The translations under genes and the position numbers were made by a program. The notes beneath the pieces were generated by a model. It had not been told where the DNA came from. It ran no database searches and was given only the letters and a program-made list of their open reading frames with translations. This document shows, in pieces, positions 8,848-37,172 of a stretch of DNA of 37,172 bases (position 1 is the first letter of the stretch; each line of letters begins with the position of its first letter). The stretch lies in NCBI GenBank assembly GCA_018970325.1, contig JAGWWP010000023.1:1-37172 (forward strand), given 5' to 3'. Source of the stretch: Cyanobacteria bacterium REEB446 (GTDB taxonomy: Bacteria > Cyanobacteriota > Vampirovibrionia > LMEP-6097).

Positions 8848-8881
8848 GGACTGCTTGCGAACTTCAATTTCTGCGTTTTCG
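8848..8881 (-). repeat. Palindromic element remnant between the response regulator and nth
   Basis: Read on the minus strand this is CGAAAACGCAGAAATTGAAG followed by TTCGCAAGCAGTCC, which matches the right half of the element in ubiX with a few substitutions. It starts directly after the stop codon of the response regulator, so the insertion may have set the present end of that gene. Confidence 0.7.
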
Positions 8882-9742
8882 TTAATCTTTTTTATTATTC
8901 TCTAATATGGATTTATTATTTTCTAACACAGAATTAATACTGAATCCCTTTAAATTACCATGTTTTAGCTGCTCCATAAGAGGATTTAATAATTCATCTG
9001 TAATTTTAAACATCGAATGAACTTCTGAGATATTATGGTGTTTGAGCTGTGAAAAGCTGTCCTGGATTATTTCTTTAAGCTCTTCTAATATCTCTTCTCG
9101 ACTTAAATCATCACTTAGATTATATTTCTCTTTTACTCGATAGAGTGTATTATTAATTCGCTTTCGAGTGCTGTTCATTTCTTCTGCTACGGTAGCCGTA
9201 CTTTTTCCGATAAGCAAAGAAGTGATTGTGCAGAATTCATAAAAAGTCATCTTCCCAATTTTTTTTAATGCACTTTGCTCTGACTGAGCGGAATCTATAT
9301 AAATACCTTTCTCGCCATGCTCGACTCGTTGAAGTATATCTAAAATAATGCTTTTATCAGTAGAGAATTTACCACCGAGGAAAACTGCTTCTAGACCTAA
9401 TTTTTCTGCTTTGTAGATAATAGAACTCTCGTAAGAAGCTGTAAATAGAATAATTTTAGTTTCAGGATTATGTTTTTTCATCCATTCGGCAAGTAGTAAG
9501 CCGCTGTTTTTAAGACCTAGATTCGATTCGCAGAGTTCGCCTAAGTAGCAGTCAAGCCAAACTAAATCAGGTTTATATTCCATGAAGGCAGATTCTGCAA
9601 GCTTGCTTGAATTGCAGAATGCTTTTATTTGAAAATCCTTTTCTAGAATGCCACTGATATAGTCCCAAGTTGTACATTGGTCTTCGACTACTATGGCTGT
9701 AGATTTTTCTTTATTCAATATTTTATTTTTTTCGTCAGTCAT
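8882..9742 (-). CDS. Orphan response regulator, REC plus LuxR-like helix-turn-helix
   Basis: A 286-residue regulator. The receiver domain (about 14-140) shows the acidic pair VVEDQ, the phospho-acceptor Asp in VWLDCYLGE, the Thr switch in LFTAS and the conserved Lys in GGKFS. It is followed by a LuxR/FixJ-type helix-turn-helix (about 165-215, TATVAEEMNSTRKRINNTLY) and a C-terminal tail unusual for the family, with the repeated motif SVLENNK/SILENNK. No histidine kinase is nearby. It is the last gene on the strand of the pilus operon, so control of pilus genes is plausible but only inferred from position. Confidence 0.8.
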   Translation of the reverse strand: MTDEKNKILNKEKSTAIVVEDQCTTWDYISGILEKDFQIKAFCNSSKLAESAFMEYKPDLVWLDCYLGELCESNLGLKNSGLLLAEWMKKHNPETKIILFTASYESSIIYKAEKLGLEAVFLGGKFSTDKSIILDILQRVEHGEKGIYIDSAQSEQSALKKIGKMTFYEFCTITSLLIGKSTATVAEEMNSTRKRINNTLYRVKEKYNLSDDLSREEILEELKEIIQDSFSQLKHHNISEVHSMFKITDELLNPLMEQLKHGNLKGFSINSVLENNKSILENNKKD

Positions 9743-17862: not shown

Positions 17863-18627
17863 ATGGCAGAGAAACATAAATCTATAATCCTTGGAATCAC
17901 TGGAGCAAGTGGTACTGTTTATGGTTTGCGTTTACTTGAATATCTTTTATCTCAGGGGACTGCTCGCAAACGTACAAATTCAAGGCTGAGGAGGACGAAT
18001 GACCGCAGTGTACTACAGATACATGAGGATCATGAGGACGACGAAAACGCAGAAGTTGAAGATTGCGAGCAGTCCCCTCAGGGTTATGTTGTTGATGTAG
18101 TTTTCTCTAATAATGCTCTGAAGGTATCTAAGCTTGAATTAGATCAAGACTGGGAAGGCTTAAATGTGCAACTGCTTAAACAAGCAGTATTGGAACATCT
18201 TTTCAAGAATTCAACTGCTTTAGATATTGATGCAGTGAAGAAACGAGTAAATTTTTGGCATGAATCCAATATAGCAGCGAGCATCGCAAGCGGCTCTTAT
18301 CAAGTAGAAGGGATGGTGGTGAGTCCCTGTAGCGTTGGTACTCTTGCGCATATCGCTCTGGGAACTAGTCATAATCTGATTTCTCGTGCAGCTGATGTCA
18401 TGCTCAAAGAACGTAAGAAGTTAATTTTAGTAGTCAGGGAGACGCCTTTCAGTTCTATTCATTTGAGAAATATGCTCACATTAAGCGATGCAGGCGCAGT
18501 GATTTTACCTGCGATTCCAGCTTTTTACCATAGACCTCACTCTATTCAAGACCAGGTTGATTTTATTACTGGTAAGACATTAGATTCTTTTGGCATAGAT
18601 TCAGATTTATTTAAACGCTGGAGATAG
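17863..18627 (+). CDS. ubiX: Flavin prenyltransferase UbiX, with a 42-residue in-frame insertion
   Basis: UbiX makes the prenylated FMN cofactor used by UbiD-type decarboxylases, in ubiquinone and related pathways. Family blocks are complete: LGITGASGTVYGLRLLEYL (N-terminal flavin loop), SNIAASIASGS, MVVSPCSVGTLAHIALG, LISRAADVMLKERKKLILVVRETP and LPAIPAFYHRP. Without the insertion the protein would be 212 aa, close to the family size. Residues 32-73 come from a palindromic element inserted in a loop directly after the first helix, and the frame is kept, so the enzyme may tolerate it. No ubiD neighbour. No Shine-Dalgarno is visible before the ATG. Downstream is the exonuclease gene with 62 bp between. 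Confidence 0.92.
   Translation: MAEKHKSIILGITGASGTVYGLRLLEYLLSQGTARKRTNSRLRRTNDRSVLQIHEDHEDDENAEVEDCEQSPQGYVVDVVFSNNALKVSKLELDQDWEGLNVQLLKQAVLEHLFKNSTALDIDAVKKRVNFWHESNIAASIASGSYQVEGMVVSPCSVGTLAHIALGTSHNLISRAADVMLKERKKLILVVRETPFSSIHLRNMLTLSDAGAVILPAIPAFYHRPHSIQDQVDFITGKTLDSFGIDSDLFKRWR
17956..18076 (+). repeat. Complete palindromic mobile element inside ubiX (121 bp, CTCAG flanks)
   Basis: The ends GGGACTGCTCGCAA and TTGCGAGCAGTCCC are perfect 14-bp inverted repeats (15 bp counting one flanking base each side). The element is bounded by CTCAG at 17951-17955 and 18077-18081, a likely 5-bp target duplication; 121 + 5 = 126 bp keeps the ubiX frame. The interior reads as a peptide with [12 protein letters not shown] and [11 protein letters not shown], which recurs in the same frame in the ABC ATPase. 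It encodes no transposase, so it must be mobilised in trans if it is mobile. Confidence 0.8.
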
Positions 18628-22128: not shown

Positions 22129-22149
22129 CTGACGTTGAACTTACACTTT

Positions 22150-22199
22150 GGGCGTGTAGCCAAACGAACAAGTTCAAGCTTTTTGCAGCAGTCCCTGAG
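22150..22199 (+). repeat. Decayed palindromic element, GGGCGTGTAGC type
   Basis: GGGCGTGTAGCC followed by ACGAACAAGTTCAAG matches the left end of the element copy in the ABC ATPase gene; the remainder is lost and the sequence jumps to GCAGCAGTCCC, like the other end. It fills the gap between the rpoD terminator and the next promoter. Confidence 0.7.
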
Positions 22200-24740: not shown

Positions 24741-25784
24741 ATTAAGGATTTAAAGAAAAATATTATTAGATTACTAGTATCCGCTTTATTATTAGTGATT
24801 TTTTTGCAGGTATTTAAATTTAATCCTAAAAGCTTTATAGATAAGATTTTGCAGCTCGATTTAAGGTTCTTTGCTTTAGCATCTTTTTTTAGCGTGCTTA
24901 CGATTGTGACTAATACTTACCGTTGGTGGATCATAACTAAAGGTTTTAATTATAAAATTTCTTATTGGACTGGTTTACTTTGGTATTTTGAAGGCATGTT
25001 TGCGAATAATTTTTTCCCTAGTAATGTAGGCGGAGATGCTTTAAGAGCCTTTTACTTAGGCACTTTAAAACACGCTGCTGATAAGCAGGATAGTGAAAAC
25101 GCAGAAATTAAAGATTCACGGCAGGCCGATGAAGGGATTGCGAAATCTAAGCACTATCATGACTGGCTTTCAGCAGGCTTGACGGTAATTCTAGAAAGAT
25201 TATTCGGCTTTACTATGATGTTTTTCTTTTTCCCGCTTTCTTTGATTTTCATCTATTCACAAAATTTATCTCATACTATGCCAGAGAGACTTATTCAGGC
25301 TTTATTTATTTTATCTATAGTGCCTTTCTTTGCATTTTTCGGTTACAAGATATGGATTAAAATCCCTATTCCTCTTGCGATATTTCAGAAAATTAAAATC
25401 GCAGTAAGTGAGTTTATTGTGCATAAGCGTTCTGTTTGGACAGTCTTGTTATGGACTTTTATTACGCATGTTTTTTTAATGGCGGTAAATGTTTTTTCAG
25501 CATTAGCTTTGGGTGTAACGCAGATACCTTTTTGGTACTGGTTTTTAGTGGTGCCGCTCGCTACGCTCGCTAGCTATGTCATCCCTGCGGTAAAAGGGCT
25601 TGGTGCACGTGAAGCTACTTACGTGTTTTTATTGAGTATTATTGGAGTTAGCTTTGATCACAGCTTCGCTATTGCGGTTACTGTATTTTTAGCGACTTTG
25701 GTTTCCTCTGTTCCTGGTATTAGCTTAGTGCGGAAAGGTAGGGAGATATTTAGTATTTTTAAGAATCCGCTGAAAAATGCTTAA
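24741..25784 (+). CDS. Flippase-like membrane protein (LPG synthase TM region / UPF0104)
   Basis: An integral membrane protein of the AglD2/UPF0104 family, related to the membrane part of lysylphosphatidylglycerol synthase and to putative lipid flippases. Family marks: FFPSNVGGDALRAFYL near the first third, then LERLFGF, and VIPAVKGLGAREATYVFLL near the C-terminus. It has about seven to eight hydrophobic segments. Start problem: the first standard start is GTG at 24795, inside the first membrane helix, but the frame is open from 24738 and an ATT at 24741 has AAAGAGG 7 nt upstream and gives KDLKKNIIRLLVSALLLVIF, a typical N-terminus. A loop carries an element remnant (SENAEIKDS). Confidence 0.82.
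   Translation: MKDLKKNIIRLLVSALLLVIFLQVFKFNPKSFIDKILQLDLRFFALASFFSVLTIVTNTYRWWIITKGFNYKISYWTGLLWYFEGMFANNFFPSNVGGDALRAFYLGTLKHAADKQDSENAEIKDSRQADEGIAKSKHYHDWLSAGLTVILERLFGFTMMFFFFPLSLIFIYSQNLSHTMPERLIQALFILSIVPFFAFFGYKIWIKIPIPLAIFQKIKIAVSEFIVHKRSVWTVLLWTFITHVFLMAVNVFSALALGVTQIPFWYWFLVVPLATLASYVIPAVKGLGAREATYVFLLSIIGVSFDHSFAIAVTVFLATLVSSVPGISLVRKGREIFSIFKNPLKNA
25095..25120 (+). repeat. Palindromic element remnant inside the flippase gene
   Basis: GAAAACGCAGAAATTAAAGA matches the CGAAAACGCAGAA block of the full elements and is read as ENAEIKD, the same frame as the ENAE peptide in ubiX and the ABC ATPase. It lies in a hydrophilic loop between two membrane segments. Confidence 0.6.
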
Positions 25785-27923: not shown

Positions 27924-27950
27924 TTTCTCATTGACGAAGAGGTATGAAAC

Positions 27951-28211
27951 TGGTGCTTGGAAGCAGGATTGAACGGACGGGCCTCTTCATTACCAATGAA
28001 ATGCCACTAACGTGGCAATTTGCTACGCAAATGAGTGAATTTTCACCTGTAGAGCACTTCATTGATGAAGAGGGTGAAACTGGTGCTTGGAAGCAGGATT
28101 GAACGGACGGGCCTCTTCATTACCAATGAAATGCCACTAACGTGGCAATTTGCTACGCAAATGAGTGAATTTTCACCTGTAGAGCACTTCATTGATGAAG
28201 AGGTATGAAAC
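27951..28211 (-). repeat. Two tandem copies of a tRNA-Thr 3' half joined to a hairpin chain
   Basis: Copies at 27951-28080 and 28081-28211 (130 and 131 bp) are nearly identical. Read on the minus strand each carries the anticodon arm and acceptor 3' half of tRNA-Thr including CCA, but with a T-arm stem that no longer pairs (GTCCG against CTGCT). Upstream is a chain of four perfect short palindromes. In copy 1 they are CTTCAT-TG-ATGAAG (28057-28070), GTGAA-TT-TTCAC (28035-28046), ATTTGC-TAC-GCAAAT (28018-28032) and TGCCAC-TAAC-GTGGCA (28002-28017). The copies lack the acceptor 5' strand and a D-arm and so cannot be working tRNAs. They lie directly 3' of the intact tRNA gene. Confidence 0.85.
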
Positions 28212-28286
28212 TGGTGCTTGGAAGCAGGATTGAACTGCCGACCTCTTCATTACCAATGAAGTGCTCTACCACTGAGCTATCCAAGC
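28212..28286 (-). tRNA. tRNA-Thr (anticodon GGU)
   Basis: The minus strand folds into a full 75-nt cloverleaf with encoded CCA: acceptor GCTTGGA/TCCAAGC (7 perfect pairs), D-arm GCTC...GAGC, anticodon stem CTTCA/TGAAG around the loop TTGGTAA (anticodon GGT, reading ACY Thr codons), variable loop of 5, T-arm GGCAG-TTCAATC-CTGCT and discriminator A. It is the one intact copy in a cluster of partial copies on both sides. No promoter could be identified. Confidence 0.95.
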
Positions 28287-28300
28287 TGGATTTATTTTCC

Positions 28301-28372
28301 TTAGAGCACTTCAAGAAGTGACTCTTTAGAGATTCGCCTGAAAGGCTCATGGCACTGAGCTATCCAAGCTGG
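28301..28372 (-). repeat. tRNA-Thr 5'-half copy joined to another hairpin chain
   Basis: Upstream of the intact tRNA the acceptor 5' strand and D-arm start are repeated (20 bases, 28353-28372). Between this copy and the intact gene lie further short hairpins: CACTTC-AA-GAAGTG (28307-28320), CTCT-TT-AGAG, GCCT-GAA-AGGC and GCTCA-TGGCAC-TGAGC. The base sequence differs from the chain on the other side, but the style (back-to-back small stems, starting from TAGAGCACTTC) is the same. Confidence 0.7.
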
Positions 28373-28480
28373 GTCAACTGATTCTCTGTAAAGAACCCTG
28401 AAAATTTTAGCATAAAATTATTTTTTATAATAATGGTGATATGCAATTTTATTTTCTGTATTTTCATTGTTTTGTGTCAT

Positions 28481-28525: not shown

Positions 28526-28576
28526 TTAAAATACTATCTTGATATTAGTATAATTAAATCAGTAAAGAAAATTATC

Positions 28577-29307
28577 ATGTTAGAGAATAGAGAAGGAAAA
28601 ACAGTACCCAGCGTAAGCTTAAAATTATAGAAGAGGGGAAATGGAAAACTCTTAATTCTGATGAGATTTTTAAAAATAAAACTGTTGTGGTTTTCTCTCT
28701 GCCAGGGGCTTTTACGCCGACTTGCTCCTCTACGCATTTACCGAGATATAACGAACTTGCTCCAGTTTTTAAAGAAAATGGGATCGATGAAATAGTCTGT
28801 CTATCAGTGAATGACACCTTCGTTATGAATGAATGGGCTAAGGATCAAGAGTGTGAAAATATCACTTTGATTCCAGATGGTAATGGTGATTTTTCAGCGG
28901 GGATGGGGCTTTTAGTAGATAAGTCTGCGATTGGTTTTGGGAAGCGTTCATGGCGTTATTCTATGCTAGTGAAAAACTCTATTGTTGAAAAGATGTTCAT
29001 AGAACCTGAAAAAGATGGTGATCCTTTTGAAGTATCTGATGCTGACACGATGTTAAAGTATATTAACCCTTCAGTTAAGCTGCCAGATTTCGCTACTTTA
29101 TTTAGTAAGGTCGGGTGTCCTCACTGCGCTAGAGCGAAGAAACTGCTTGAAGAGAAAGGCGTAATTTATGAAGAGATAGTTTTAACTAACAAGCTGACAC
29201 GCCGCTCTATGACGAATGTTACGAGTGGAACTACTACGCCGCAGATTTATCTTAATGGTAAATATATTGGCACGGCTGATGAGTTAGAGGCTTTTTATAA
29301 GGGATAA
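28577..29307 (+). CDS. Peroxiredoxin-glutaredoxin fusion, frameshifted near the N-terminus
   Basis: A hybrid Prx5-Grx enzyme that reduces peroxides with its own glutaredoxin domain. The long frame holds [18 protein letters not shown] (peroxidatic Cys), the Prx5 domain, then a glutaredoxin domain with CPHCARAK and the [22 protein letters not shown]-binding region. The natural start is the ATG at 28577, giving [16 protein letters not shown], but that frame stops at codon 18. Adding one A to the AAAA at 28621-28624 joins it to [20 protein letters not shown] and restores a 243-aa protein of the family's usual length. Without correction, translation could only begin inside the core (GTG 28687), losing the first strands. 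Either a recent mutation, a sequencing error or slippage. Confidence 0.75.
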
Positions 29308-29314
29308 TAATTTA

Positions 29315-30371
29315 GTGCCCCCAATATTAGAAATTAAAAATCTCAATAAAACTTATAAGTCTGGTTTTAAAGCACTTGATGATATTAATCTTGAAATTCA
29401 AGAGGGTGAAATTTTTGCGATTTTAGGTCCAAATGGCGCAGGGAAGACGACGTTAATAAGTTCTATCTGCGGAATTACTAATCCAAGTTCTGGGACTATT
29501 TCGGTGAAAGGTTTTGATCATACTGAAAATTACCGAGAAGTAAGAAAAATGATTGGTTTAGTGCCTCAAGAATTAACTACAGATATGTTTGAGAAAGTAG
29601 TTGATACCGTTAATTTTTCTAGAGGCTTATTCGGTCTTCAGTCTAATAAACTATATATCGAAAGGATTCTGGAAGACTTATCCTTAAGTGATAAAAAAAA
29701 ATACTCAAATTAAAGCCCTCTCTGGCGGCATGAAGCGTAGAGTGATGATAGCTAAGGCTCTTGCGCATGAGCCTGAAATATTATTCTTAGATGAGCCTAC
29801 AGCAGGGGTAGATGTAAAATTACGAGAATCTATGTGGGAGTCAGTCGCTCAGCTGCGTAAAAATGGGGTTACTATAATTTTAACTACCCACTATATTGAA
29901 GAGGCTGAAAAAATGGCAGATAGAATTGGCATTATAAATAAAGGAAAAATTATTTTAGTTGAAGAAACTAAGACCTTAATGAAGAAGCTCGGTAAAAAAG
30001 AGCTGATATTCAGCTTCGTAGAGAAAATTAATTCTATACCAGAATCTCTGAGACGCTTTAATCTTCGGCGAGATGGTGATAATTTTATTTATTCCTATAA
30101 TGAAAATGCAGAAATTGGAGATTGCGAGCAGTCCAGTGGGCGTGTAGCCGAACGAACAAGTTCAAGGCTGAGGAGGACGAATGACCGCAGTGTACTGTGG
30201 GTACATGAGGATCATGAGGACGACGAAAACGCAGAAATTGGAGTTCCGCTACACGCCCGTAATGGACTGAATAGTTTAATAAAATCTATTAATGATTTAG
30301 GTATTTCTTTTAAAGATCTTGAAACGAAGCAGACTTCTCTAGAGGATATTTTCGTTCAGTTGGTGGAGTAG
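29315..30371 (+). CDS. ABC-2 export system ATP-binding protein, frames joined across an A9 tract
   Basis: Cytoplasmic ATPase of a two-gene ABC exporter with the permease 3 bp downstream. Walker [10 protein letters not shown] lies in the first frame (29315-29713, GTG start); the signature LSGGMKRR, Walker [13 protein letters not shown] and switch His TTHYIEEA lie in a second frame. The frames meet at an A9 run (29693-29701): removing one A gives [13 protein letters not shown], the expected sequence. A tract of this length is typical of transcriptional slippage, so a full protein may still be made. The C-terminal third carries two successive palindromic element insertions (about 55 residues) between YSY and GLNSLIKS, outside the nucleotide-binding core. 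Confidence 0.8.
30106..30268 (+). repeat. Palindromic element copy next to an older element end, inside the ABC ATPase
   Basis: Bases 30102-30135 are the right end of one element (GCAGAAATTGGAGATTGCGA, then GCAGTCC). Directly after it sits a complete second copy with different termini: AGTCCAGTGGGCGTGTAGC on the left and, at the right, GCTACACGCCC (30248-30258) followed by TGGACT. The core ([19 protein letters not shown]) is shared with the ubiX copy in the same frame. So the second copy landed in or beside the remnant of the first. Confidence 0.75.
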
Positions 30372-30374
30372 TAG

Positions 30375-31136
30375 ATGAATTTTCAGGCAATTAAATCAAT
30401 ATATAACTTTGAGATGGCAAGAATGTGGCGTACTATAACACAAAGCCTTGCTTCTCCAGTAATTTCAACTTGTCTTTATTTCATTGTGTTTAGCTCCACA
30501 ATTGGTTCTAAGATTAGCGAAGTCGATGGAGTTTCTTATGCCGCCTATATAGTTCCAGGGCTTATAATGCTTTCAGTTTTAACGCAGAGTATTTCTAATG
30601 CTTCATTTGGAATTTATTTCCCAAGATTTACTGGGACTATATATGAAGTACTTTCTGCGCCTATTTCGTACATTGAAATTCTATTTGGTTATGTAGGTGC
30701 AGCTGCTTCTAAGTCTTTTATTCTAGGAGCTGTAATCTTTATTACCGCAAGATTCTTTGTGGATTTTAATGTAGACTATCCACTTTTAATGATTATGTTT
30801 TTTATTCTTACTTGTATAACTTTTAGCTTGATTGGTTTTATTATCGGTATTCTTGCTGAAAATTTTGAACAATTAGGGATCTTTCCATCATTAGTAATAA
30901 CGCCTTTAACTTTTTTAGGTGGTAGTTTTTATTCGATAAATATGCTGCCAGAGTTTTGGAGAAATATTTCGTTACTTAATCCAGTGCTTTATCTTGTGAA
31001 TGGCTTTAGATGGAGTTTCTATGGTGAATCTGATTTGAATCCAATTATAAGCTGTATTATGATCTCAGTTTTTCTTATTATTAGCTTACTTACGATTCGT
31101 TGGATATTTAAAACTGGTTATAGGCTTAAGGCTTAA
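30375..31136 (+). CDS. ABC-2 type permease
   Basis: A 253-aa membrane protein with six hydrophobic segments, paired with the ATPase just upstream. Recognisable ABC-2 features are AAYIVPGLIMLSVLTQSI after the first helix and, before the last helices, FLGGSFYSINMLPEFWRNIS ... NPVLYLVNGFRW, the conserved motif of the NodJ/DrrB-type permeases. Substrate unknown; such pairs export lipids, glycans or drugs. The gene has no visible frameshift, which suggests that the system is kept despite the break in its ATPase. Confidence 0.88.
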   Translation: MNFQAIKSIYNFEMARMWRTITQSLASPVISTCLYFIVFSSTIGSKISEVDGVSYAAYIVPGLIMLSVLTQSISNASFGIYFPRFTGTIYEVLSAPISYIEILFGYVGAAASKSFILGAVIFITARFFVDFNVDYPLLMIMFFILTCITFSLIGFIIGILAENFEQLGIFPSLVITPLTFLGGSFYSINMLPEFWRNISLLNPVLYLVNGFRWSFYGESDLNPIISCIMISVFLIISLLTIRWIFKTGYRLKA

Positions 31137-31175
31137 GAGGACGATGAAAACGCGGAAAATGGAGTTGTACAGTGG
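31137..31175 (+). repeat. Palindromic element remnant between the permease and purU
   Basis: GAGGACGATGAAAACGCGGA followed by AAATGGAGTTGTACAG corresponds to the GAGGACGACGAAAACGCAGA block and right end of the element in the ABC ATPase. It starts at the permease stop codon and fills the convergent gap. Confidence 0.65.
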
Positions 31176-31181
31176 TCTCTC

Positions 31182-32054
31182 TTAGTCGAAGACTAAGGTT
31201 TTTCCGTCGTGGACTATGATTTTATCTTCCGCATGAGCACGAATCGCTTTTGCTAGAACCTGCTTTTCTATATCTCGGCCTTTTGAAATATAGTCCTCGA
31301 CAGTATCACGGTGATCTATGTTTATAACACCTTGTTCTATAATAGGTCCCATGTCTAAATCTTCAGTTGCATAATGTGCAGTAGCTCCGATGATCTTTAC
31401 ACCTTTGTCATAGGCTTGGTGATAGGGTTTTGCACCCTTGAAAGATGGCAAGAAGCCATGGTGTACATTGATAATTCGATATGGATATGAGTTTATAAAC
31501 TGTGGGGTGAGAATTTGCATGTAACGAGCAAGAGCGATAAAGTCTATCTCAAGCTCTTGCAGCCTTTTTATGATTTGAGCTTCTTGATTGAGTTTGCTGT
31601 CGTAGCTAGCCTTTGTGCTATCGCTAATTTTTTCTATTGGATAATATTCAAAAGGAATATTAAATGCGGTAGCTACATGCTTAAGATCTAGGTGGTTACT
31701 GATAATTACTGGTATCTCGACATTTATCTCGCCATATTGTTTACGTAAAAGCAGGTCATAGAGGCAGTGATCGTATTTAGAAACTAGTACTGCCATTTTC
31801 TTCGTATGGTGTGAAAATTTGAAATTCATTGAAAACCTAGCTGCAATTGAGCTGAAGGCTGAATTTAAATCTTCTATTTTGATATTGAATTTAGTCGCAT
31901 CGACTAAAACTCGCATAAAAAAATGAGCAGTTAACCCAGATGAATACTGCTGTGAGTCTATGATATTCCCATTATTCTCTGAAATAAAGCCACTGACAGC
32001 ATTTACTATGCCTTTTTGATCGAAGCAGTCTATAAGTAGTGTGAATTTATTCAT
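31182..32054 (-). CDS. purU: Formyltetrahydrofolate deformylase
   Basis: PurU hydrolyses 10-formyl-THF to formate and THF, balancing one-carbon pools. The 290-aa protein has an N-terminal ACT domain (about 3-80, LLIDCFDQKGIVNAVSGFIS) and a C-terminal formyltransferase fold with ALARYMQILTP, the catalytic INVHHGFLPSFKGAKPYHQA (Asn and His) and ATAHYATEDLDMGPIIEQ (catalytic Asp). Length and order match the family. It is downstream of ileS on the same strand; the 44 bp between them are filled by a palindromic element remnant, and no Shine-Dalgarno is visible. Confidence 0.95.
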   Translation of the reverse strand: MNKFTLLIDCFDQKGIVNAVSGFISENNGNIIDSQQYSSGLTAHFFMRVLVDATKFNIKIEDLNSAFSSIAARFSMNFKFSHHTKKMAVLVSKYDHCLYDLLLRKQYGEINVEIPVIISNHLDLKHVATAFNIPFEYYPIEKISDSTKASYDSKLNQEAQIIKRLQELEIDFIALARYMQILTPQFINSYPYRIINVHHGFLPSFKGAKPYHQAYDKGVKIIGATAHYATEDLDMGPIIEQGVINIDHRDTVEDYISKGRDIEKQVLAKAIRAHAEDKIIVHDGKTLVFD

Positions 32055-32057
32055 AAG

Positions 32058-32097
32058 GATTATGAGGCGGGCGAAAACGCAGAAATTGAGTAGTCCT
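32058..32097 (+). repeat. Palindromic element remnant between ileS and purU
   Basis: GGATTATGAGGCGGGCGAAA followed by ACGCAGAAATTGAGTAGTCC aligns with GGATCATGAGGACGACGAAA, then ACGCAGAAATTG of the full copies. It occupies almost the whole intergenic space, including the region just before the purU ATG. Confidence 0.7.
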
Positions 32098-32098
32098 A

Positions 32099-35077
32099 TT
32101 AAGCATTATTAAGGTCAAGATGCCCTTGTATAGCGGCATCACAGACTTTACAGATATGCTCCGCATTTACTTCTTCTGTTTTAAAGTGCTTCCAACAGCG
32201 TTCACATTTTACTGAATTCTCAAAAGGCTTGGCTGTAACTTTAATCTCGTTAGCTTCCTTGAATTTCAGTTCAGAGACTATAAAGCAGGCTTTAATATCT
32301 TCAAGAATGCTTTCATATTCATCAAGTTTAGCCTTAGGTAATTCTATGATTAATTCAGCTTCAAGTGATTTACTAACTGTTTTATTTGCTTTAAGTTCTT
32401 CTAGTTCTTTGTTAGCAAGCTCTCTGATGGAGAGGATTTCTTCCCATTTTTTACCTAACTCTGGATTGAGGTAGCTATCATTGACTAAGGGCCAGTTACT
32501 GAGCTGGATAGATTTAGATGTACTAACTTTAGGTGAAAAGAAACTTCTATTTAAATCTGCTGAATTTACATAATATTCTTTAATTTTCTCTGGCGTATGC
32601 TGGTAAATATCTTCTGCAAGATGTGGCAGTATAGGCACAAAGAAACGATTTAAACTCGATAATATCTCAAGTATCACTGTCTGAGCCGCTCTGCGTGATG
32701 CAGATTTTTTACCATGCGTATAGAGTCTATCTTTACAGATGTCGAAATAGAAAGCAGATAGATCTACTGAACAGAAATTCTGTATAAGCTGATAAAATTT
32801 CACGAATTCATAGTTATTAAAAGCTTCTGTGATCTTTAAGCTTAGTTCCTGTAATTTATGTAATATCAGTTTATCTAAATCATGTAATTCTGCGTAGGGA
32901 ACTGAATCTTCTTCTGGGTTAAAGTCGAAGAGGTTGCCAAGCATAAACCTACTCGTGTTTCTAAAGTTTCGATAAATTTCACTTAGCTGTTTAAATATAT
33001 TTTTACCGACTTTAATGTCTACAGAGTAATCTACACTTGCTACCCATAGTCTAAGTACGTCAGCGCCATATTCCTGCATAATTTCATCTGGGTCGACGAC
33101 GTTGCCTAAAGATTTGGACATTTTACGTCCCTGTTCATCCATTACGAAACCATGGGTGAGGACATTATCGTAGGGTCTAATATTATTTACAGCTACTGAT
33201 GTAAGTAAGCTCGACTGAAACCAGCCTCGATGCTGATCTGAACCTTCTAGGTAAAGATCTACTGGCTCAAACTCAGTAGACTTAAGCTCTTCACGCAGAT
33301 TAACTACGCTTCTATGGCTAGAACCAGAATCAAACCAGACATCCATAGTATCAGTCTCTTTAGAAAGATTTTCTACTCGGTATTTAGGGTTAGCTCCGCT
33401 ACTTAGGTGACTAGGAATGAGTTCTATTATTTCTTTAGCGTACCAAGCAGAAGAACCTTCTGCTGCAAAGATTTTCGCTACGTGCTCAATAATTTCAAAA
33501 TCTAAAATCACTTTAAAATTACCGTTAGCTTCGATTATAGATGTATCGTAAAAAACAGGAATAGGTACTCCCCATGTTCTTTGACGAGATATGCACCAGT
33601 CGCCTCTACCTTCTACCATGCTATAGATACGGTTTCTAGCTCTAGCTGGAAACCATTTAACTTTATCTATTTCGCTAAGAGCCTTTTCTCTAAAACTATC
33701 TATGCTAGCAAACCACTGTTCAGTAGCTCTAAACAATAGTGGAGTTTTAGAACGCCAGCAATAAGGGTAGCTATGTCTAAATTTACTGTGTTTAATTAAT
33801 GCTGTAGCGGCTTTCAAGGCAGAAATAATAGTAGGATTAGCTTCCTTCGCTATGTGTAAGCCTTCTAAAGTAACTATTTCATTATTTTCAGTTTTAAGTT
33901 CACCAGCTTCTTTAGTAAAAGCACCTTTAGGATCTACTGGGCAGAGCACGCCTAGATTATATTTTTTACCGACTTCAAAATCTTCTTGTCCGTGGCCAGG
34001 CGCAGTATGAACGCAGCCTGTACCAGTTTCTGTGCTGACGTGATCGCCAAGTATGACAGGTGATTCACGATTATACAGAGGGTGTTTAGTTTTAATACCC
34101 TCTAGGTCAGAGCCTTTAAGACCTTCTGTAATTATTTCTAAATCTGTTAATTCTGTTTTAGTTTTAAAATCTTCGAAAAGATCTTTCGCTATTATTAATT
34201 TTCCGAATTCGCTTGAATTTACTATGCAGTAGTCTATATCAGCGTTTAAGCAGATCGCTAAATTTGCAGGCATGGTCCACGGAGTGGTAGTCCAGATCAC
34301 AAAGGAAGCATTAGAGAGTTCTGTTTTTAATTTACCAAGAGAGTTATGGTTTTCTTTCTGAGTGCTTTCTTGGATAGATAAATCACTGATCTGAAATCTT
34401 ACATATATAGAATCAGAAGTATGTTCTTCATATTCTATTTCAGCATCAGCTAAAGCTGTCTGGCAGCCATAGCTCCAATGAACACATTTTAAGCCTCTGT
34501 AGATATAGCCTTTTTCAGCCATTTCACTAAATAGTTTTATCTGTTCAGCTTCATACTTAGGGTCTAAAGTCACATAAGGGTTCTGCCAGTCAGCATTTAT
34601 ACCGAGGCGTTTAAATTTAGTTTCCTGTCCTTTCAGGTTTTTTAAAGCAAATTCTTTGCATTTTTCACGTAACTCGACTATGGAGACAGCATTTCTACCG
34701 CCTTTAATCTCTTTAACTACAGCATTCTCAATCGGCAAGCCGTGAGAATCATAACCTGGAATAAAAGGTACTTTAAAACCCTGTTGGTATTTAAATCTAC
34801 AGATTATATCCTTAAGGATTTTATTTAAGGCAGTTCCTATGTGAATTTTATCTGAGCTTAAATATGGAGGTCCATCATGTAATATAAAGCGTTTTGCACC
34901 TTCATCTTCCCTAATCCTTAATCCCTGCTTGTAAATATCTAATTCTTCCCAGAGTTTTTGAAATTCTGGTTCACGGACTGGTCCATTCCCGCGCATAGGA
35001 AATTCTGTAATAGGCAGGTCTATAGACTCCTTTATGGCTTTTTTGTAGTCTTCAGATGATATTTTTTCCGTTTGCAT
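32099..35077 (-). CDS. ileS: Isoleucyl-tRNA synthetase
   Basis: Charges tRNA-Ile. I choose the ATG at 35077 (992 aa, MQTEKISSEDYKK); the frame is open to 35158 but that would overlap the divergent gene at 35140. Family features: the HIGH-box region GPPYLSSDKIHIGTALNKILKD, the editing domain with VIWTTTPWTMPANLAI and GTGCVHTAPGHGQEDF, then the DVWFDSGSSHR and LEGSDQHRGWFQSSLL blocks, KMSKS in GRKMSKSLGNV, and a C-terminal zinc ribbon CERCWKHF ... CKVC. Oddity: the HIGH box reads HIGT, the last His replaced by Thr. All else is complete, so it is the likely housekeeping enzyme. Confidence 0.95.
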   Translation of the reverse strand: MQTEKISSEDYKKAIKESIDLPITEFPMRGNGPVREPEFQKLWEELDIYKQGLRIREDEGAKRFILHDGPPYLSSDKIHIGTALNKILKDIICRFKYQQGFKVPFIPGYDSHGLPIENAVVKEIKGGRNAVSIVELREKCKEFALKNLKGQETKFKRLGINADWQNPYVTLDPKYEAEQIKLFSEMAEKGYIYRGLKCVHWSYGCQTALADAEIEYEEHTSDSIYVRFQISDLSIQESTQKENHNSLGKLKTELSNASFVIWTTTPWTMPANLAICLNADIDYCIVNSSEFGKLIIAKDLFEDFKTKTELTDLEIITEGLKGSDLEGIKTKHPLYNRESPVILGDHVSTETGTGCVHTAPGHGQEDFEVGKKYNLGVLCPVDPKGAFTKEAGELKTENNEIVTLEGLHIAKEANPTIISALKAATALIKHSKFRHSYPYCWRSKTPLLFRATEQWFASIDSFREKALSEIDKVKWFPARARNRIYSMVEGRGDWCISRQRTWGVPIPVFYDTSIIEANGNFKVILDFEIIEHVAKIFAAEGSSAWYAKEIIELIPSHLSSGANPKYRVENLSKETDTMDVWFDSGSSHRSVVNLREELKSTEFEPVDLYLEGSDQHRGWFQSSLLTSVAVNNIRPYDNVLTHGFVMDEQGRKMSKSLGNVVDPDEIMQEYGADVLRLWVASVDYSVDIKVGKNIFKQLSEIYRNFRNTSRFMLGNLFDFNPEEDSVPYAELHDLDKLILHKLQELSLKITEAFNNYEFVKFYQLIQNFCSVDLSAFYFDICKDRLYTHGKKSASRRAAQTVILEILSSLNRFFVPILPHLAEDIYQHTPEKIKEYYVNSADLNRSFFSPKVSTSKSIQLSNWPLVNDSYLNPELGKKWEEILSIRELANKELEELKANKTVSKSLEAELIIELPKAKLDEYESILEDIKACFIVSELKFKEANEIKVTAKPFENSVKCERCWKHFKTEEVNAEHICKVCDAAIQGHLDLNNA

Positions 35078-36232: not shown

Positions 36233-37172
36233 TTAATAAGCAGTCGGCATTTTTGGTGGTTCTGGCACTCTTAAATTCTTTTTATTGTTAACTTGTTCGG
36301 GATAATTTGGCAGTAAATCTGGAACCCCTTTGACAGGATTTTCGGAAATAGAGTTTAGTGCCACTACTACACCAACAATATACAAACAACTAACAAGTGT
36401 TCCCTTTACTGAACCGACTAAAATCTCTTTTGTCCACTCTAAAGCAATGTTCTCAGGCATCCTTTTATTGAGGAAGGTTTTTAATTCATTAGGGCTTAGT
36501 TCTTCATTAGCAGTCTTCATTATCAGCTCTACTGTTTCTTTTTTAGGCATCATGTCTTTTGGCCGCAGGACATGTTGCTTAAAGAAGGTGTTTAATTCAT
36601 AAGCGTTTAGTTTCTTAACAGCAGTCTTCAGTATCAGCGCTACTGTTGCTTCATTACCCCTCCATGCTGCAACTAGTAAAGCGTTATCGCCATTTTTGTT
36701 AGTCCGAGTAAGGAAGGTTTTAAATTTATCAGGGCTTAGTCTTTCATTAGCAGTTTTTAGTATCAGCTCTAATGCTTTATTACCCCTCCATGCTGCAACT
36801 AGTAAAGCGTTATCGCCATTTTTGTTAGTCCGAGTAAGGAAGGTTTTAAATTCATTAGGGCTTAGTTTTGCAATAGCAGTATTCACTATCAACTCTAATG
36901 CTTTTTTATCACCATTCCATGCCGCATGTATTAAAGCGTTGTCGTCATCTTTGTTAGTCTGAGTAAGGAAGGTTTTAAATTCATCAGGGTTTAGGATTTT
37001 TTCTGCTACATTAAGTATCAATTCTACTGTTTCTTTATTACCATTCAATACTGCACGCATTAAAGCATTATTGCCATATTCGTCAGTTTGAGTGCGAAGT
37101 TTTTCTAATTCTCCAGTAGGTAGTTCTGCAAGATTCATCATATGTTTAAAATCTTCAGCACGATCTCTACTC
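36233..37172 (-). CDS. Ankyrin-repeat protein with C-terminal membrane helix, 5' end outside the window
   Basis: The frame continues without a stop to the right edge, and the residues before the ATG at 37141 (DFKHMMNLAELPTGELEKL) still follow the repeat pattern, so I read the gene as entering from beyond the window. At least four ankyrin-like repeats of about 42-44 residues are visible (GDNALLVAAWRGN ... ELILKTA ... LSPDKFKTFLTRTNKN), longer than the usual 33. A membrane helix near the C-terminus (VKGTLVSCLYIVGVVVALNSI) is followed by a Pro-rich tail. Ankyrin proteins of this kind are common in host-associated bacteria, but a role is not shown here. Confidence 0.7.
   Translation of the reverse strand, partial: SRDRAEDFKHMMNLAELPTGELEKLRTQTDEYGNNALMRAVLNGNKETVELILNVAEKILNPDEFKTFLTQTNKDDDNALIHAAWNGDKKALELIVNTAIAKLSPNEFKTFLTRTNKNGDNALLVAAWRGNKALELILKTANERLSPDKFKTFLTRTNKNGDNALLVAAWRGNEATVALILKTAVKKLNAYELNTFFKQHVLRPKDMMPKKETVELIMKTANEELSPNELKTFLNKRMPENIALEWTKEILVGSVKGTLVSCLYIVGVVVALNSISENPVKGVPDLLPNYPEQVNNKKNLRVPEPPKMPTAY
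36649..36860 (-). repeat. Recently duplicated repeat unit within the ankyrin gene
   Basis: Stretches beginning ATTACCCCTCCATGCTGCAA near 36653 and near 36779 are almost identical for about 80 bp, at a period of 126 bp (42 codons). The neighbouring repeats are more diverged. One copy lacks a codon (GNKALELIL against GNEATVALIL), so the unit was duplicated recently and has already changed. Confidence 0.7.

Follow-up and report, generated by a model that had tools for sequence, protein, structure and literature searches.

What is a single, intact tRNA gene doing among partial copies of itself, each joined to a chain of perfect hairpins, and is it alone in this? The question arises at a tRNA-Thr(GGT) locus in the window, by which we mean the whole 37,172-nucleotide stretch of DNA analysed, contig C33 of a 2.25-Mb draft genome (G000). 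The original prediction, made from the letters alone, had described an intact tRNA-Thr with two tandem 130-nt units on its 3' side and one different unit on its 5' side, and this description is borne out by ARAGORN, by Rfam, and by a 129-nt stretch shared by 3' units 1 and 2 at 100% identity and a spacing of 130. ARAGORN and Rfam agree on a single tRNA-Thr(GGT) gene at 28212-28286 on the minus strand, and an Rfam search of the window finds tRNA as the sole known RNA family. Read in the direction of the tRNA, the locus consists of a probable -10 region, an 83-nt 5' unit, the tRNA, 3' units of 131 and 130 nt, and a partial third unit, with the following parts:

28404 to 28416, minus strand: probable -10 region TATGCTAAAAT, upstream of the 5' unit, read from the sequence by eye
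28287 to 28369, minus strand: 5' unit, 83 nt, with a tRNA 5' end copy, hairpins, an antisense piece and an AT-rich spacer
28353 to 28369, minus strand: exact 17-nt copy of the tRNA 5' end (acceptor 5' strand and D 5' strand)
28307 to 28320, minus strand: perfect hairpin of the 5' unit, CACTTC-TT-GAAGTG
28302 to 28313, minus strand: antisense (inverted) copy of the tRNA D3'/anticodon 5' strand, TGAAGTGCTCTA
28212 to 28286, minus strand: intact tRNA-Thr(GGT) gene, CCA encoded (ARAGORN; Rfam RF00005, 71.2 bits)
28081 to 28211, minus strand: 3' unit 1, 131 nt, with a spacer, an inverted anticodon/D arm, three mini-hairpins and the sense tRNA 3' half to CCA
28179 to 28203, minus strand: inverted anticodon arm and D3' strand of unit 1, copied from the tRNA, by sequence a 26-nt antisense-strand match except for a 3-nt deletion
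28132 to 28176, minus strand: chain of perfect hairpins in unit 1, GTGAAAATTCAC, ATTTGCGTAGCAAAT and TGCCACGTTAGTGGCA
28081 to 28130, minus strand: tRNA 3' half in sense (anticodon arm to CCA) in unit 1, T-stem altered
27951 to 28080, minus strand: 3' unit 2, 130 nt, nearly identical to unit 1
28049 to 28073, minus strand: inverted anticodon arm and D3' strand of unit 2, copied from the tRNA
28002 to 28046, minus strand: chain of perfect hairpins in unit 2, identical to that of unit 1
27951 to 28000, minus strand: tRNA 3' half in sense in unit 2
27927 to 27950, minus strand: third 3' unit, cut short after its spacer and a degraded inverted arm; more of the unit survives in the related genomes G001 and G002

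Each 3' unit begins with a spacer of about 7 nt, continues through the inverted anticodon arm and D3' strand and three perfect mini-hairpins, and closes with the tRNA 3' half to CCA. The 5' unit is its mirror, running from the tRNA 5' end through hairpins and an inverted D3'/anticodon piece to the spacer. Every Thr unit is a palindromised tRNA end: a terminus copy and an inverted tRNA arm, with perfect mini-hairpins at the center. The hairpin chains had been predicted to start from the same point of the tRNA, and that point is real; what was missed is that TAGAGCACTTCA repeats the tRNA's own D-stem/anticodon arm in inverted (antisense) form, at 28049-28073, 28179-28203 and 28302-28313. Between 27951 and 28210 there are 12 perfect hairpins (stem of at least 5, loop of 2-6), against 1.0 +/- 0.96 in 200 shuffles (maximum 4). 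Across the whole window, the count of 69 hairpins with stems of 6 or more falls within the 64-70 of its shuffles; the enrichment is confined to the Thr units. Split tRNA genes, which have no intact gene and whose halves are joined in trans, do not describe this locus, where an intact tRNA-Thr gene is present. Given the probable -10 region at 28404-28416, the 5' unit would probably lie inside the pre-tRNA leader; a promoter scan lists no match at that exact site.

Could such a locus be an artefact of assembly, or a set of ordinary tandem tRNA duplicates in decay? Contigs do break at these arrays (G001 C3/C10, G002 C41), and array copy numbers are uncertain for that reason. However, the 430-nt Thr block, of which G000 itself holds no second copy, occurs at 98% identity in a sister species (G001) and is also found in a third species (G002), so that three species of the genus share the locus; their independent assemblies have the same units with species-specific substitutions, and units within contigs differ from one another. 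Duplication, for its part, does not account for the antisense and hairpin parts, and the early judgement that this is not ordinary tRNA duplication stands on the same ground. The Thr arrangement is not an assembly artefact, and we consider this whole line of explanation scarcely credible. The Thr 5' unit occurs once in G000 and at least 3+3 times (that is, at least six) in G001, where three copies lie on the tRNA contig and three on the upstream-flank contig, a split from which we conclude that the assembly broke inside the array. Met 5' units likewise number 2/4/1, and the Lys array has 1 versus 3.7 units. In a different genus of the same family (G008), the single 3' unit at tRNA-Thr combines an inverted fragment with a complete but degenerate copy of the tRNA. 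A search for hairpin strings dispersed through the genome led us to reject that idea: the unit is unique in its genome.

The arrangement is clearly present at other tRNAs as well as in related species. We located all 33 tRNA genes of G000, added tRNA loci from five relatives (an incomplete set for G006), and scored tRNA flanks against their own tRNA, with the wrong tRNAs of the same genome as control. At the lenient cut-off of a score of at least 20, self-derived flanking pieces occur at 13/33, 12/33, 5/14, 15/30, 14/26 and 13/27 tRNA genes in the six genomes; in G000 the 99% control level is exceeded by the sense signal in 7/33 and by the antisense signal in 9/33 of the 3' flanks. The expectation that other tRNA genes might have similar flanks is thereby confirmed: in the present sample, which consists of draft genomes from few species, roughly a third to half of the tRNA genes in six genomes of an uncultured Melainabacteria family bear self-derived flanking units. 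The antisense signal is absent from all 65 tRNAs examined from other families of the class (0/31 and 0/34). Within the family the antisense piece and the exact end copy go together, on the 3' side (21/29 with an end copy versus 16/132 without; Fisher p ~2e-10) and on the 5' side (10/18 versus 13/145; p ~9e-6), p-values that are indicative only, since cells from related species are not independent; 8/29 of the 3'-end copies and 8/18 of the 5'-end copies have no detectable antisense piece. The odd Thr locus belongs to a class of tRNA-terminus palindromes found across the genome.

The basic structure of the class is simple: a 3' unit runs from a spacer through a reverse-complemented part of the tRNA and small hairpins to the sense 3' end, and a 5' unit is the mirror image. 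In outward order, on either side of the tRNA, the parts comprise an AT-rich spacer, an inverted tRNA arm, a tight turn, a sense piece, a T-run, a perfect hairpin and the terminus copy. The duplicated tRNA end measures at least 24 nt in the window's Thr units; in what we term class A (Trp, Asp, Ala, Cys and Arg-CCG) it is exactly 14 nt, at Phe it is 15 nt, and in 5' units it is usually 17-19 nt. The distance from tRNA to end copy is nearly fixed for each tRNA across genera (Cys 85/85/85/81, Met 78/78/79/81, Asp 86/87/87, Val 84/84/80). Because the end copy complements the inverted copy, a unit can fold to a closed branched hairpin domain, and the units are predicted to fold as such a domain ending in the tRNA terminus, strongly in several cases and weakly in others. 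Most units have a predicted closing stem, with z -5.6 for Asp of G002, -4.7 for the window's 3' unit and -3.2 for its 5' unit, for example; the predicted folds of some others, such as Trp (z -0.3) and E. coli rtT (z -1.0), are no more stable than those of shuffled sequence. Stem positions are less divergent among the three sister species (5.3%, 25/474) than the remaining ones (about 11%, 75/670), and there are three double compensatory pairs, such as Met GGAGGC/GCCTCC to AAAGGC/GCCTTT. Part of this lower stem divergence could reflect gene conversion with the tRNA; the tip hairpins, however, are not tRNA-derived. Hairpin h2, likewise not derived from the tRNA, has a similar sequence at several tRNAs (GACCTWGAAGGTC beside those for Trp, Thr and Arg), a likeness that suggests exchange or spread. 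The units have no credible Rfam match.

A second group, class B, is an approximately 130-nt conserved structured element 3' of tRNA-Ser, Arg-ACG and Leu-TAG across the family, where it lies behind a strong symmetric terminator and has the conserved core GAATCCATTGGTAAAAAAACG..TTCCTYCGGGGT..TTCCCCTAAA. A covariance model of class B (R1), run over 194 genomes of the class, gives strong matches in this family only, nearly all of them directly 3' of tRNA-Ser, Arg or Leu, and on these grounds we rejected class B as a free mobile element. One displaced copy lies 1.9 kb from tRNA-Arg and has an ortholog in G000; it looks like a segmental duplication.

Are these units, then, miniature mobile elements or att cassettes, put at tRNA ends by a recombinase (a tyrosine integrase, a casposase-like enzyme or another), with the end copies as target-site or att duplications and the hairpins as recombinase sites? 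This is the main rival to the origin that we propose below, mainly because of the 14-nt end copies, the class B core common to Ser, Arg and Leu tRNAs, and the common h2 sequence. The end copy of exactly 14 nt at five tRNA types, and of 15 nt at Phe, recalls casposases, which make 14-15 bp duplications at tRNA 3' ends (PMC6977970). Tyrosine-recombinase islands, tycheposons and casposons all resemble the units in leaving a copy of a tRNA end beside an intact tRNA gene, but the units here are 60-220 bp, gene-free, and equipped with inverted arms of the host tRNA, and interiors that carry the inverted arm of one particular host tRNA are not expected of transposon cargo. Nor does any candidate transposase track the distribution of the units. 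Cas1 is absent from G003, G006 and G008 and a Y1 transposase from G000-G002, all of them unit-bearing, so that we rejected both as the common agent; the lack of Y1 also separates the units from REP and IS200-IS605 elements. For the Thr units themselves (83-131 bp), no integrase appears among the window's listed open reading frames, only some of which were searched against Pfam. The h2 sequence is found beside tRNAs only, the class B copy away from a tRNA resembles a segmental duplication, and 5' arrays appear placed between promoter and tRNA. The early suggestion of a mobile element targeting tRNAs is accordingly less supported, as the palindromes are made from, and tied to, each tRNA rather than being one sequence that spread. 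We think a mobile origin unlikely for the units as a whole, with the proviso that the conserved core of class B at Ser, Arg and Leu is more like a mobile or functional element.

A true integrative element in the same setting is instructive here. In G001, tRNA-Lys carries an element of about 8.5 kb (L364, G001:C12:107500-119500) that encodes a tyrosine recombinase of 371 aa and a DUF3987 protein and has att repeats of 50 bp, which reach from the anticodon loop to a little beyond CCA; the element's presence is a point in favor of a mobile origin. This element displaced the old tRNA 3' half together with its 3.7-unit array, and since it did so, the arrays sit in integration hotspots yet are distinct from the integrating element. 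We accordingly rejected a reading of the G001 tRNA-Lys as an empty site. At tRNA-Lys of G000, the left part of a similar element comes after the array. Genes for MNT-like nucleotidyltransferase antitoxins adjoin both displaced copies of tRNA elements (L364:796-1516 and, beside the displaced class B copy, L343), and in L364 a HEPN-like open reading frame follows the antitoxin gene.

Rickettsia palindromic elements offer another comparison, being small palindromes that invade genes and spacers, and an RPE-like family is present in this genome; the tRNA units, however, do not belong to that family, and each tRNA has units of its own. The RPE-like sequence is a palindromic repeat of about 130 bp (GGACTGCTCGCAAACG...CGAGCAGTCC) that lies in frame inside protein genes at 17955-18075 and 30102-30257, with partial copies at 8848-8882, 22149-22178, 25071-25127, 31122-31178 and 32049-32105; further copies adjoin tRNA-Asp (L194) and lie within the tRNA-Ser(TGA) unit of G001 (L211). 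Elsewhere in the window, five imperfect repeats of 126-129 bp occupy 36471-37166 in a protein gene (36233-37141, minus strand), and a peroxiredoxin-glutaredoxin gene has a 1-nt deletion near its start (region 28575-28690) relative to G001 (AGCTTAAAATTATAG versus AGCTTTAAAATTATAG) that breaks the N-terminal frame and is either a sequencing error or real.

The closest known likeness to the units comes from E. coli, whose rtT repeats at tyrT are old and still unexplained, and have long been treated as a one-locus curiosity. We read the K-12 tyrT/tyrV locus directly for comparison. Its units, at a tandem spacing of 178 bp, consist of a spacer, GGGGAAGGATGAGAAGCTTCGA (the inverted T-arm of tRNA-Tyr), a 2-nt turn, AAGGTTCGA in sense (the T5' strand), mini-hairpins such as GTTGCC-GCA-GGCAAC, and the tRNA-Tyr 3' end; the inverted T-arm scores 29, where 300 shuffles reach at most 24, and one unit also lies in the tyrT-tyrV spacer. 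Like rtT, the Thr 3' units hold an exact copy of the adjacent tRNA 3' end, are arranged in tandem directly downstream of the tRNA (spacing 130), and contain an inverted tRNA arm and mini-hairpins, a feature of rtT found in the present analysis. The E. coli units are few, GC-rich and on the 3' side only, whereas those of Melainabacteria occur at many tRNAs and both ends and differ in sequence. The Rfam RtT model (RF00391) recovers all four K-12 units at 133-138 bits and no tested Melainabacteria locus, up to E = 1. By model, then, the Melainabacteria units are not RtT RNA; by anatomy they are the same kind of thing as rtT. The spacers of E. coli argVYZQ (GGGAKGAT...hairpins...TAATCCTCCCGGATGCACCA) likewise contain an end copy, matched by an incomplete inverted counterpart, and combine a hairpin core common to rtT with ends specific to tRNA-Arg, but the inverted piece is short and its antisense scores of 14-18 are not significant alone. 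The annotated units at tyrT number 4, 3, 2, 1 or 0 among E. coli strains; arrays can therefore expand, contract and be lost. A search of the open literature found no usable account of rtT with tyrT, or of partial tRNAs with tandem repeats or hairpins in cyanobacteria.

An E. coli rtT RNA has been proposed to act as a regulatory small RNA or decoy, and the units in Melainabacteria may likewise be selected RNA genes, whose transcripts, made together with the tRNA, would be cut into small structured RNAs or tRNA-like decoys and regulate the maturation of tRNA, its charging or the response to stress. The original prediction had offered tRNA-half-like small RNAs as one guess, and the units may give such RNAs by analogy with those of E. 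coli, which are annotated as an sRNA (RttR / RtT). Conservation of stems with compensatory changes is consistent with such a role, as are the CCA-bearing tRNA terminus at the end of 3' units and the cloverleaf-like folds predicted in some 5' units (Val of G006). Several facts fit less well: at Lys, Asn and Ser a strong terminator stands ahead of the unit; the mirror symmetry of 5' and 3' units puts the T-run on opposite strands, which suits a DNA-level explanation better than an RNA-level one; and rtT is wholly absent in some E. coli strains. Selection as RNA genes is a reading we hold to be possible but rather doubtful. The T-run raises the further thought that the units are outward-facing terminators of tRNA-gene transcription that happen to be built from tRNA arms, with h1 followed by T's, and class A does have a T-rich stretch of about 11 nt outward of h1 on both sides of the tRNA. 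But h1 is short (about 5 bp with a tiny loop) and weak, the Thr 3' units of the window lack a proper T-run, and separate strong terminators already stand at the Ser, Lys and Asn elements. Terminators, moreover, need neither a copy of the tRNA end nor tandem arrays; we rejected a terminator-only reading, which leaves both unexplained, and regard this account as very improbable.

The reading that we favor, and hold to be probable, is that rtT-type tRNA-terminus palindromes are made by fold-back, multiplied by recombination, and tolerated because a hairpin of its own keeps each end copy locked away. We propose that a nascent strand folds back and switches template at tRNA-arm hairpins, which would generate inverted and repeated segments together with tight mini-hairpins. 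Template-switch or quasipalindrome correction and inverted duplication are expected to yield a sense-inverted-sense order and perfect short hairpins. We infer fold-back from structure: it would fuse a tRNA end to that end's inverse, produce the tight hairpins and work on both flanks of a gene, although no unit was caught in formation. Among the three origins first suggested, repeated template switching agrees best with the units, which are DUP-INV-DUP structures with snapback hairpins; they depart from ordinary template-switch mutations in being long conserved and in recurring at one and the same position next to many tRNA genes. Units would then be gained or lost when the short tRNA-end repeats recombine or slip, a step supported by the copy-number variation. 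Persistence may depend on folding: a free second tRNA end would be expected to compete with the real end in the precursor, so that only units whose end copy is locked by an inverted partner would be tolerated, and locked units might be released as small RNAs. This folding-based reason cannot apply to all units, since the Lys, Asn and Ser elements lie behind strong intrinsic terminators.

More speculatively, this family of bacteria may run a dedicated and continuing process that turns tRNA gene ends, on both sides, into self-complementary, tRNA-like hairpin cassettes with a conserved function, as decoys, as switches of tRNA maturation or as buffers against tRNA-targeting integrases, and of which E. 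coli rtT would be a small outlier; we think this unlikely on present evidence. The anatomy of rtT at about a third to half of the tRNA genes in a distant phylum, and at both gene ends, makes it a general phenomenon with a simple rule: a tRNA end, its own inverse, and hairpins. The same rule is a caution that apparent integration scars and pseudo-tRNAs near tRNA genes may be something else, and the family supplies dozens of examples with which to choose among fold-back mutation, a mobile element and a functional RNA.
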